DNA of 64,000 nt from Thermococcus camini (GTDB lineage Archaea > Methanobacteriota_B > Thermococci > Thermococcales > Thermococcaceae). The position numbers and the translations under genes were made by a program. The notes under the pieces were generated by a model, which ran no database searches, was not told the origin of the DNA, and was given only the letters and a program-made list of their open reading frames with translations. Shown piece by piece: positions 49,903 to 55,992 of this stretch. The first letter of the stretch is position 1. Each line of letters starts with the position of its first letter. Location of the stretch: positions 1,802,277 to 1,866,276 of the forward strand of contig NZ_LR881183.1 in the NCBI RefSeq assembly GCF_904067545.1. Direction: 5' to 3'.

Positions 49903-49959
49903 ACCCATGGATTGGATGAATAAGCAGACAGGGCGAAGTCAAACACAGGGGTGAAACCC

Positions 49960-52900
49960 ATGGCTGAAAGTGTTGGTGAAGTTCCAAGCGGCGAAAAAGA
50001 GTTCGCCGAATCAACCCGCAGGATAAGAGACATCATCGAATTCCCCGAGATAAATGAGGAAGAGTTTGAGCGCATGCTCAAGATTGCAAGCAGGGCCTAT
50101 GGAGGGCCCCTGCCGCACAGGACGTACTCCCTCTGTCCCGAAACGAGGAGAGTTGTTCCGGCCCTCGTATGGGAGAACGATGGGAAGGTCTGGATAACCA
50201 AACGCTGTCCCGAAGGAATGATAACCGACGTCTATTACGAGAGCATTGAGCAGTACTACCGCTTCCAGAAGTGGAAGTACGATTTCAAGCTTATGAGCAC
50301 AAACGTTGAGAACACCGGCGTTAACTGCCCCTTTGACTGTGGAATGTGTGCCAGACACCGCTCCCACACTAACCTGCTCAACATCGTGCTCACCAACCGC
50401 TGTAATTTAAGCTGCTGGTACTGTCTTCCAAGGGACGAGGAAGTCCCCTTCAGGATAAACGGGAAACCCGTGATTGCCAGAATGGAGGACGTGGCCAGGC
50501 TGGTGGAATTCAAACACAGGGTTGAAATAGACGGCTTCTCCGGAGAATACGGCACGCCGGACTGGCTTGAGGTAATAACCTTCAGAAATGGAAAGGCCGA
50601 GTGGGCGAGGGTTACCAAGTTCCTCAGGAGGAGGCACGAGGGTAAGGTCTACAGGATAAGAACCCACACTGGAAGGGTCCTCAGAACGACTCCGGAGCAT
50701 AAGTTTCTGGTTTATTCAAACGGGGAGTTCGTTAAAAAGAGGGCTGATGAGCTGAAAGCCGGTGATGAGCTCGTTCTCCTCTGGAACTTTGGGAACGGTT
50801 CTGAAGGCGAGGAATTTGAGATTGACCTTCTTGAAGCGTTCAGAGACCTGCCGGAGGACGAGAAGGAGAAAACATACGTGCGCGGAATCGGTGAACTGGA
50901 CTTAAGCCCGCTGAAGGAGAAGTACGGAGACAAAATCTACCAGTGGAAGAGCAGGGACTCAATGCCGTTGAAAGCTTTCTACGAGCTCAACGTCTCCGGA
51001 AACTTCCGCCTCGGAAGGGACGCCACCGACCATGAGCTCCCCTCGAAACTCAAGGTAACCCCAGAGTTCGCCAAGCTCATTGGCTACTTCATCTCCGACG
51101 GGCACTACACCGACAAGGACCTCAGGATAACCGTTGGCCACGAGGACGTGGAGAGGGAAATTGTAGCCCTGTTGAAGAAGCTCGGACTACCTTTCAGCTT
51201 CCTTGAGTGGAAGGGCAAGGCGAAGCAGATAGTAATCGGCAGCAGGCTCCTAAGGCTGGTCTTCAAATATGCACTTGGTATTCCCGAGGGAGCCGAGAAC
51301 AAGAGGCTTCCAAGGGACTTCCTGAGGTTCCCGCTCGATGCGAAGGTCGCCCTCCTGAGCGGGCTCTTCAACGGCGACGGCTACGTGGTAAGGGGAGAGA
51401 GGCATCTCAGCGTTGGCTACGCAAGCGTTTCAAGGGCACTGATAAGGGACATGCTGTATCTCCTGGCTTCTCTTGGAGTCTTCGCGAGGGTCTACACTGT
51501 TGAGAAGGAGAAAATGAGCGGGGCAAACCACGACCTTCACAAGCTCTACATAGCCGGTACCGACATGGTGAAACTCCTTGAGCTGCTTGAGCTCAGAGAA
51601 GGGCACAGGGAGAGGCTTGGCGACGTGGGGAAGAGAAAGCCCGCGAGAATAGACCGCGTTGGGGACTTCTTCCTGGATGCCGTTGAAGCGATCGAGACGG
51701 AAGAGTACAGCGGCTACGTCTACGACCTTGAAGTTGACAGCGAGGAGCACGCGTTCGTTGCCGGGGATGGAATTCTGATAAGCAACTGCTTCTTCTACGC
51801 CAAGGAGGGCCAGCCGATATACGAGCCGACCCTCGAGCAGATACGCATGATGCTCCGCAACGCCAAGAAGCAGTATCCTGTTGGGGCCAATGCCGTCCAG
51901 CTGACCGGCGGAGAGCCGACCCTCCGCGAGGACCTCATAGAGATAATCAAAGTCGCGAAGGAAGAAGGTTACGACCACGTCCAGCTCAACACCGACGGAA
52001 TAAAGCTCGCCTTCGAGCCGGAGCTGGTAAAGAAGATCCGCGAGGCTGGCGTTAATACCCTCTACATGAGCTACGACGGAATGACGCCCCAGACCAACTG
52101 GAAGAACCACTGGGAGGTTCCCCTCATCTTCGAGAACGTCAGGAAGGCCGGAGGGCCGGGAATAGTCCTGGTTCCAACGACCATAAGGAACGTGAACGAC
52201 CACGAACTCGGAGCCATGATAAACTTCGCCCTCAACCACCTGGACATCGTCAGGGGTGTGAACTTCCAGCCCATCTCCCTCGTCGGAAGGGTCCCGAGGA
52301 AGGAGCGCCAGAGGTTTAGAATAACCATTCCCGGCGCCATAGAGCGCATAGAGGAACAGACCAACGGTGCAATAGCGATGGACGACTGGTACCCGATTCC
52401 GATAGCAGGACACATAGCCAGGTTCTTCGAGGCCTTCACCGGCTCGCGCTACTACATGACGAGCCACTACTGCTGTGGCGCGGCAACCTACGTCTTCCTC
52501 GACCGCGAGAACAAGAAGGTCATCCCGATAAGCAGGTTCCTCGACGTCGAGGGCTTCGTCGAGTACCTTGAAGAGAAGGCTGATGAGATAGAGCAGTGGA
52601 AAACCATGGGCAGACTCAGGAAACTCAAGCTCGGGGCGGAGATATTCGTGAAGTTCAAGAGCTTCTATGACGACAGGTACGCGCCCAAAGGCGTGAAGGT
52701 GCTCGACCTTATAAAGAACGCCTTCATGTACGGCAACTACGACGCCCTCGGCAAGTTCCACACCAATGCCCTCTTCCTCGGAATGATGCACTTCATGGAC
52801 GAGTACAACTACGACGTCGAGCGCGTCGAGCGCTGCGTCATCCACTACGCCATGCCGGACGGCAGGACGGTGCCCTTCTGCACCTTCAACGTGATTCCAG

Positions 52901-53091
52901 AGCTCTACCGCGACAAGGTCCAGGCCCAGTTCAGCTACACCTGGGAGGAGTGGAAGGCCATGCACCCAGACTGGGAGTACCGGAAGGACAAGTACATCAG
53001 AACGAAGGAGTTTGTCGAGGAGATGAAAAAGAGCGAGCTTTACAGGAAGACCTACATCGACATCGAGGACTACTTCGGCCTGGCGGAGTGA
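49960..53091 (+). CDS. tes: Tetraether lipid synthase (radical SAM), interrupted by an intein
   Basis: Tes joins the phytanyl chains of two archaeols to give the membrane-spanning GDGT lipids. The 1043-residue reading contains a 588-residue extein: the N-terminal cysteine-rich part (CPETRRVVPALVW, TKRCPEG, NCPFDCGMCARH), the radical-SAM cluster CNLSCWY-C, QLTGGEPTLREDL (the GGE motif) and a C-terminal domain with ERCVIHYAMPDGR, CTFNVIPELYRD. The intein (50422-51786) starts at the third cysteine of the C-x3-C-x2-C motif; splicing restores it. The start is ATG 49960 rather than GTG 49951. Confidence 0.88.
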   Translation: MAESVGEVPSGEKEFAESTRRIRDIIEFPEINEEEFERMLKIASRAYGGPLPHRTYSLCPETRRVVPALVWENDGKVWITKRCPEGMITDVYYESIEQYYRFQKWKYDFKLMSTNVENTGVNCPFDCGMCARHRSHTNLLNIVLTNRCNLSCWYCLPRDEEVPFRINGKPVIARMEDVARLVEFKHRVEIDGFSGEYGTPDWLEVITFRNGKAEWARVTKFLRRRHEGKVYRIRTHTGRVLRTTPEHKFLVYSNGEFVKKRADELKAGDELVLLWNFGNGSEGEEFEIDLLEAFRDLPEDEKEKTYVRGIGELDLSPLKEKYGDKIYQWKSRDSMPLKAFYELNVSGNFRLGRDATDHELPSKLKVTPEFAKLIGYFISDGHYTDKDLRITVGHEDVEREIVALLKKLGLPFSFLEWKGKAKQIVIGSRLLRLVFKYALGIPEGAENKRLPRDFLRFPLDAKVALLSGLFNGDGYVVRGERHLSVGYASVSRALIRDMLYLLASLGVFARVYTVEKEKMSGANHDLHKLYIAGTDMVKLLELLELREGHRERLGDVGKRKPARIDRVGDFFLDAVEAIETEEYSGYVYDLEVDSEEHAFVAGDGILISNCFFYAKEGQPIYEPTLEQIRMMLRNAKKQYPVGANAVQLTGGEPTLREDLIEIIKVAKEEGYDHVQLNTDGIKLAFEPELVKKIREAGVNTLYMSYDGMTPQTNWKNHWEVPLIFENVRKAGGPGIVLVPTTIRNVNDHELGAMINFALNHLDIVRGVNFQPISLVGRVPRKERQRFRITIPGAIERIEEQTNGAIAMDDWYPIPIAGHIARFFEAFTGSRYYMTSHYCCGAATYVFLDRENKKVIPISRFLDVEGFVEYLEEKADEIEQWKTMGRLRKLKLGAEIFVKFKSFYDDRYAPKGVKVLDLIKNAFMYGNYDALGKFHTNALFLGMMHFMDEYNYDVERVERCVIHYAMPDGRTVPFCTFNVIPELYRDKVQAQFSYTWEEWKAMHPDWEYRKDKYIRTKEFVEEMKKSELYRKTYIDIEDYFGLAE
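50422..51786 (+). other. Intein with LAGLIDADG homing endonuclease in Tes
   Basis: The 455-residue insert begins CLPRDEEVPFRINGKPV and ends FVAGDGILISN, followed by extein Cys+1 (CFFYAKEG). Splicing blocks are present: Cys1, TTPEHKFLVYSNGEFVKK (block B with T-x2-H), and block F/G VYDLEVDSEEHAFVAG. The last two residues are Ser-Asn instead of the usual His-Asn. Two dodecapeptide motifs (LIGYFISDGHY and LLSGLFNGDGYV) indicate a homing endonuclease, probably active since both acidic residues remain. Confidence 0.93.
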
Positions 53092-53101
53092 GGTGATGGC
53101 G

Positions 53102-53407
53102 ATGGAGGGGGCAAGCGGAAAGCAACTCCTGAGGATCGACTTCAAGTTCAGGAAGATAGCACCGGATGAAGCAAGAACGAAGCAGTACGAGCTCCTGAAG
53201 GACGAGAGAATCTGGAGGGCATTCCTCAACGGCTACACCGGGAACGGCTACGTGGTCTTCGACGAGGAGGCCCTCCCGAAGGACGAACTCCTGTCCAGAC
53301 TGAGGGAGTTCGAGCCAGAGGTAACGGCCATACGCCGGCTCACCCTCGGGGAGCTCATAGAATCCAGCTACTCGTGGAACAACATACTGGGAAGTATGGA
53401 ACCGTAA
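53102..53407 (+). CDS. Small conserved protein downstream of tes
   Basis: The 101-residue protein has alternating strand-helix order (LRIDFKFRKI, KQYELLKDERIWRAFLNGY, GNGYVVFDEEALP, LLSRLREFEPEVTAIRRLTLGELIESS), compatible with a small alpha/beta fold. I recall similar Thermococcales domains of unknown function but cannot name the family with certainty. It begins a few bases after the tes stop (ATG 53096 or 53102, with GAGGTG before it), so it is likely co-transcribed. Confidence 0.7.
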   Translation: MEGASGKQLLRIDFKFRKIAPDEARTKQYELLKDERIWRAFLNGYTGNGYVVFDEEALPKDELLSRLREFEPEVTAIRRLTLGELIESSYSWNNILGSMEP

Positions 53408-54903: not shown

Positions 54904-54973
54904 CGCGGCAGGGGCTTATTGGTCTTTCGCATCACCCGGGATGCTTTTATATGGAGGCACCCTAGACCGGAGC

Positions 54974-55321
54974 ATGAGGCCCTACCGAGGACTGACGATA
55001 ATATTCGGCTTCTACGCGCTGGGTGAGTTTACAACCTATGCCCTCAACCTGACGATTCCGGGGAGCGTGCTCGGCATGCTCTTCCTCCTGGGCGCACTGC
55101 TCACAGGCCTCATCAAACCCGAGTGGGTGGAGGGCGAGGCAGAGCTGTTCGTCAGGAACATGAGCGTCATGTTCATCCCTCCCGGCGTCGGGATAGTCAC
55201 ATACCTCGGTCTGATAAAGAGCCAGGCGGTACCGATATTCGTCGCCCTGGTTCTGAGCTTCCTGGTTACGCTCGTCGTGACGGCGAAGACGGTCGAGTTC
55301 CTCAGGAGGGGTGAGGAATGA
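54974..55321 (+). CDS. LrgA/CidA-family holin-like membrane protein
   Basis: The 115-residue protein has four hydrophobic segments and family phrases NLTIPGSVLGMLFLLGALL near residue 25 and FIPPGVGIVTYLGLI near residue 68. In bacteria LrgAB and CidAB affect autolysis and export of small carbon compounds such as pyruvate; in an archaeon without murein the transport role is more likely. TATA box CTTTTATATGG lies at about 54943. The stop overlaps lrgB (ATGA). Confidence 0.88.
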   Translation: MRPYRGLTIIFGFYALGEFTTYALNLTIPGSVLGMLFLLGALLTGLIKPEWVEGEAELFVRNMSVMFIPPGVGIVTYLGLIKSQAVPIFVALVLSFLVTLVVTAKTVEFLRRGEE

Positions 55322-55992
55322 ACCCGCTCGGAATAACGCTCACCCTCGTTGTCTTCTACCTGTTCTCGGAGCTCCACTCCAGGAAAAGGGCATTCTATAC
55401 CAACCCGGTTCTCCTCTCCATAATCACGATAGCTGCCATTCTCAAGTGGTTCGGAATCCCCTACGGGAGCTACATGGATAGCGCAGGCATACTCAAGTTC
55501 CTGCTCGGGCCGGCGGTGGTGAGCCTCGCGGTTCCGGTCTACAAAGGCAGGGGGACTATAAGGGCCTACGCGAAGGAGATAACGCTTGGAATAGCCGTCG
55601 GCGGAACGGTTGCAATCCTGAGCGCCTTCTATATCGCACAGTTTCTGGGCGGTAGCGAAGAGGTCCTCCTGAGCATAGCCCCCAAGAGCGTTACCACCGC
55701 CATAGCGATCGGTATAAGCGAGAAGATAGGCGGCATTCCGGCTTTAACCGCGGTACTCGTGATACTCACCGGACTCCTCGGCAACGCCTTCGCCCCGGAG
55801 CTGCTCGACCTTATCAGGGTTAGGGACAGAATAGCCAGAGGTTTGGCGACTGGCGTCAGCTCCCACGGCCTTGGAACGGCGAGGATAATACTGGACGATG
55901 AGCTCGCGGGAGCGGTGAGCGGCCTTGCGATGGCCCTGAACGGCGTCTTCACATCGTTACTGCTTCCCTACCTTATCGAAGTCCTCAAGTAG
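55318..55992 (+). CDS. LrgB/CidB-family membrane protein
   Basis: The 224-residue integral membrane protein has about seven segments and contains FLGGSEEVLLSIAPKSVTTAIAIG near residues 110-133 and GVSSHGLGTARII, the hallmarks of LrgB. It is coupled to lrgA by the ATGA overlap. The last 36 bases run into the convergent Tfx gene. Confidence 0.92.
   Translation: MNPLGITLTLVVFYLFSELHSRKRAFYTNPVLLSIITIAAILKWFGIPYGSYMDSAGILKFLLGPAVVSLAVPVYKGRGTIRAYAKEITLGIAVGGTVAILSAFYIAQFLGGSEEVLLSIAPKSVTTAIAIGISEKIGGIPALTAVLVILTGLLGNAFAPELLDLIRVRDRIARGLATGVSSHGLGTARIILDDELAGAVSGLAMALNGVFTSLLLPYLIEVLK

Follow-up and report, generated by a model that had tools for sequence, protein, structure and literature searches.

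Within the 64,000-nucleotide stretch of the Thermococcus camini genome analysed here (the window), an open reading frame of 1046 codons (49951-53091; all window coordinates are on the + strand) ran unbroken through an intein and both of its exteins. Translation likely starts at the ATG at 49960, which has GGTGAAA just upstream. The N-extein (49960..50421) comprised a zinc-ribbon part, an auxiliary C-x3-C-x2-C (50326-50349) and, within its terminal CNLSCWY (50401..50421), cysteines 1 and 2 of the radical-SAM motif, namely Cys-7 (50401-50403) and Cys-3 (50413-50415). An intein of 455 aa followed in frame (50422..51786), and the C-extein (51787..53091) opened with Cys+1 (51787-51789), the third cluster cysteine once splicing has occurred. 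The flanks read TNRCNLSCWY and CFFYAKEGQ around an intein ending in GILISN; the third position of C-x3-C-x2-C is therefore held by Cys1 before splicing and by Cys+1 afterwards. The initial annotation had given these intein limits exactly and had also correctly placed the insertion at the third cluster cysteine (CNLSCWY, intein, then Cys+1). The G+C content of the intein (0.544) and of the exteins (0.553) was alike. Downstream, a gene for a DUF3213 protein (53093-53407) starts one base past the tes stop codon, and an LrgA/LrgB pair (54941-55992) lies near tes. At another locus (L014), an LrgB-like gene, a Na+/H+ antiporter and a uracil-DNA glycosylase gene likewise adjoin tes.

The spliced host sequence scored 674 bits against the NCBIfam equivalog NF045702 (tetraether lipid synthase, Tes; cut-off 450), and the whole precursor scored 2100 bits against NF045703 (Tes, intein-containing; rSAM_Tes_intein; cut-off 1700). 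The M. jannaschii GDGT-MAS structure (MJ0619; PDB 7tol) aligned to both exteins (E 2.5e-127) with NRCNLxCxxC matched, Pfam Radical_SAM was found in the precursor (E 4.5e-24), and the fold predicted for the precursor by AlphaFold resembled Tes 7tom. Judged by these profile and structural matches, the host protein is Tes, in agreement with the initial annotation. The interrupted form is already catalogued as NF045703, of which the window copy is a member: host and site are the same, the match is full-length and no difference was found. The T. camini genome (2,022,529 bases, one contig) contained tes once, and GDGT synthesis therefore requires splicing. The earlier proposal that the enzyme cannot be active before the intein leaves was upheld. 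Heat-tolerant archaeal membranes are characterised by tetraether lipids, which are also the basis of GDGT palaeothermometry.

The intein carried the motifs of a class-1 element with a LAGLIDADG homing endonuclease domain. Block A (CLPRDEEV, 50422..50445) holds the Cys1 nucleophile, the sole cysteine of the window intein, and block B reads TPEH (T90, H93; 50689..50700). The two LAGLIDADG motifs (LIGYFISDG, 51076..51102; LSGLFNGDG, 51355..51381) contain the catalytic Asp226 and Asp319, block F (VYDLEVDSEEHAF, 51718..51756) contains Asp435 and His443, and block G (DGILISN, 51766..51786) ends in Ser454-Asn455. Pfam models for both parts were matched (Intein_splicing, E 2.4e-21; LAGLIDADG_3, E 4.4e-17). 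These features were compared across a set of 20 distinct inteins, or 21 with the Archaeoglobales copy L229; identity within the set ranged down to about 45%. Cys1, TPEH, Asp and His of block F, the terminal Ser-Asn and Cys+1 were invariant in the 21 inteins, as was Asp226; Asp319 was present in all except L016, in which the second LAGLIDADG motif was eroded. The intein is real, and chance is excluded. With the full class-1 complement in place (Cys1, T90/H93, D435, N455 and Cys+1) and both catalytic aspartates of a two-motif homing endonuclease retained, the window copy is predicted to splice and its endonuclease is probably active.

In the AlphaFold model of the precursor the domains were recognisable and both splice junctions were poorly modelled (pLDDT <50 at 148-153 and 610-618). 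The intein part matched the endonuclease-bearing inteins 2cw7, 7qss, 7qsu and 1dq3. Its best structural matches, PI-PkoII, PI-PfuI and TliVMA, likewise combine a HINT splicing domain with a two-motif LAGLIDADG endonuclease, but they have other hosts and homing sites and only about 17-20% sequence identity to the Tes intein.

Most inteins have histidine at the penultimate position, although some 5% of functional inteins carry a different one there, and putting histidine back benefits some inteins and harms others (PMC4031507). The window intein lacks this histidine and has Ser454 in its place, from which the initial annotation had argued that splicing might be slow or conditional. If loss of the histidine had made splicing inefficient or temperature-dependent, the element would be a degenerate, slow intein, as the prevalence of histidine in other inteins might lead one to expect. 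We consider this very unlikely. The serine was invariant over all 21 inteins, including those of a groundwater archaeon (L019) and of Archaeoglobales, and the block F histidine was kept in every one of them. Two further P. abyssi inteins, KlbA (VVSN, then C) and RIR1-2 (YTSN, then S), also end in Ser-Asn. Moreover, the splicing domain had a dN/dS of 0.02-0.12 in intein pairs with dS >0.7, indicating purifying selection. Loss of the penultimate histidine as a sign of decay was ruled out by the fixation of Ser-Asn across a divergent allele. Since Ser-Asn is fixed in this allele and functional inteins without the histidine exist, the argument from histidine loss to conditional splicing fails. The likeness to KlbA ends with its Ser-Asn followed by Cys: KlbA inteins (P. 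abyssi; M. jannaschii MJ0781, PDB 2jmz) are mini-inteins that begin with Ala (class 2), unlike the Tes intein, a class-1 element that starts with Cys1 and carries an endonuclease.

A redox-trapped intein in P. abyssi 'MoaA' was reportedly published by Callahan et al. in 2011. As described in two reviews (PMC3922620, PMC10663303), a disulfide that links N-extein Cys-3 to Cys1 stops the first splicing step of this intein until it is reduced, and the authors argue that the block protects an oxygen-labile enzyme. We surveyed the inteins of the P. abyssi genome (G004), whose DNA polymerase D (DP2) was identical to P. abyssi PDB chains, including the Pab PolII intein 2lcj (all 185 residues). The genome contained 14 inteins, hosted by RIR1 (3), MCM (2), IF2, RFC (2), V-ATPase A, PolII, RtcB, KlbA, LonB and Tes. 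Tes was the sole intein-bearing radical-SAM gene (G004:C1:657851-661006; L122:1352-4507; a 1052-aa frame), no other radical-SAM frame of the genome was as long, and the Tes intein alone among the 14 had a cysteine at -3. The true MoaA is encoded by a separate gene (458 bits to NF001199), and an intein there was ruled out, its 329-aa frame having no insert. The older name probably reflects the similarity of Tes to the archaeal MoaA model, which P. abyssi Tes matched with E 2.0e-16.

By elimination over the whole P. abyssi genome, then, the published redox-trapped 'MoaA' intein appears to be the Tes intein, because Tes is the only radical-SAM intein host and the only one of the 14 with Cys-3. 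It would thus be the same allele as that in the window (Tes host, third-cysteine site, Cys-3), differing in its published name. The P. abyssi Tes intein was 70% identical to the window intein, in which CWY likewise places a cysteine three residues before Cys1. It follows that the trapping residue would be the second cluster cysteine of Tes and that the published redox switch would belong to lipid synthesis rather than to molybdenum cofactor synthesis. Both the annotation and the physiological story of the P. abyssi 'MoaA' intein look misassigned. Our literature search found no paper equating this intein with Tes, and no relevant paper tying inteins to tetraethers, Tes or GDGT. Few native inteins have a reported redox switch, and one of them appears to lie in the tetraether-making enzyme; the reassignment would correct the physiological story of a reviewed case of conditional splicing. 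The redox control suggested by the initial annotation is backed by the reports of a Cys-3/Cys1 disulfide in P. abyssi, although the Ser-Asn reasoning that had led to it fails.

This raises the question of whether the switch is adaptive, with redox-conditional splicing allowing Tes activation, and hence GDGT synthesis, when the cytoplasm is reducing and the oxygen-labile Fe-S clusters of Tes can be built. The disulfide block described for P. abyssi and the authors' oxygen-labile-enzyme argument would favour such a role. Cys1 was, in addition, the sole intein cysteine in 17 of the 21 copies, leaving no competing disulfide within the intein. The position of Cys-3, on the other hand, is set by the cluster motif of Tes and not by the intein: because the insertion site follows C-x-x, the second cluster cysteine is always at -3. 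The distribution of the intein also speaks against an adaptive switch.

The intein was found in 17 of 94 Thermococcaceae genomes, each with one tes, while tes itself was detected in 87. The remaining 77 genomes gave no intein match, and most of these had an uninterrupted tes, the intein-free genes of many relatives running straight through the insertion site. Intein presence changed 14 times on the host tree, at least 10 of them on well-supported branches. The intein and host trees disagreed: the intein tree paired G022 with G035 (support 99/95); the host tree paired G022 with T. camini (100/99). Between T. camini and G022, dS was 1.15 for the intein and 0.43 for the C-extein, and because the intein dS is the greater, the intein was acquired independently in at least one of the two.

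Two species provided a more recent case. The inteins at G076:C5:926433-927797 and G081:C171:1670-3034 had 0 mismatches over 1365 positions, and the tes genes outside the intein were 92.5-94.6% identical (i.e. about 7% different), the nearest extein mismatches lying 40 bp upstream and 33 bp downstream of the intein. Identity of this extent at the extein rate has a P of about 1e-33 or less, and on this comparison the shared intein is a case of recent homing. Viral contigs searched with peptide patterns yielded no carrier of the Tes intein. The sporadic distribution, the G076/G081 pair and the dS conflict are the pattern of an element that moves independently of its host gene. Because the distribution is sporadic and homing is recent, we argue that the intein persists chiefly through its own mobility.

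Our preferred reading, to which we assign a probability of roughly 0.88, is that a self-splicing, mobile class-1 LAGLIDADG intein occupies the single tes gene and is maintained by homing, the redox trap being a by-product of the insertion site. The element would exploit the strongly conserved stretch of tes that codes for the radical-SAM cysteines. During splicing, Cys1 would attack the N-junction and the chain would then move to Cys+1; Asn455, preceded by Ser rather than His, would cyclise, and the exteins would join. This would restore C-x3-C-x2-C and make an active Tes possible. Under oxidising conditions a Cys-3/Cys1 disulfide, such as that reported for the P. abyssi ortholog, would block the first step, and homing from one species to another would let the element persist. 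The simplest view of redox sensitivity is that it is a by-product of the insertion site, because the element spreads by homing and is carried by a minority of the genomes (17/94). An adaptive switch is, by comparison, unlikely: the many genomes without an intein match, the repeated changes on well-supported host branches and recent homing, which accounts for persistence of the intein, all weigh against it. Since most relatives manage without the intein, an adaptive role is possible yet not needed.

Nor do we favour the stronger claim that the Tes intein actually gates membrane architecture after translation, such that precursor would accumulate in an oxidised cytoplasm and reduction would yield active enzyme; we regard this as improbable. 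Such a gate would operate through the Cys-3/Cys1 disulfide, perhaps together with a cluster or metal bound by Cys-7, Cys-3 and Cys1. A related proposal is that the precursor, whose C-x3-C-x2-C is complete with Cys1 as the third ligand, might bind an Fe-S cluster or zinc, sequester Cys1 and so hold splicing. Divalent metals do inhibit other inteins (PMC4031507), but folding of the ligand loop would have to proceed while a cluster cysteine still carried the intein, and we judge this mechanism highly improbable. If the gate were real, intein-bearing Thermococcales and Archaeoglobales would tune their tetraether:diether ratio to redox and their intein-free sisters could not. The reassignment of the 'MoaA' intein makes this loose idea directly testable in comparisons of intein-bearing with intein-free sister species.

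Thermococcales-like tes genes with the intein were also found outside the Thermococcaceae, in the Archaeoglobales genomes G115, G134 and (truncated) G119, and in two Thermoproteota-labelled MAGs (G117, G118). The loci in the latter two (L015, L018) had a common gene order around tes, unlike that of Thermococcus. Because this order is shared by the two MAGs and not with Thermococcus, it suggests that a whole interrupted tes gene may have been transferred between phyla. G183, from the order to which G118 belongs, had two tes genes, one Thermococcales-like and free of the intein, the other of native type (G183:C137:3890-5173, G183:C209:26574-27845), which may reflect contamination or transfer. 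A search for tes in G023 (Thermococcus-genus, one contig, 99% complete) gave no match, and natural loss of the tetraether synthase is possible in this genome. In an Archaeoglobales tes with the intein (L033:1469-3358), the C-extein frame stops soon past the junction, through truncation, frameshift or assembly error. Lastly, five Archaeoglobales genomes (G163, G171, G122, G124 and G127) contained two tes-like genes each.
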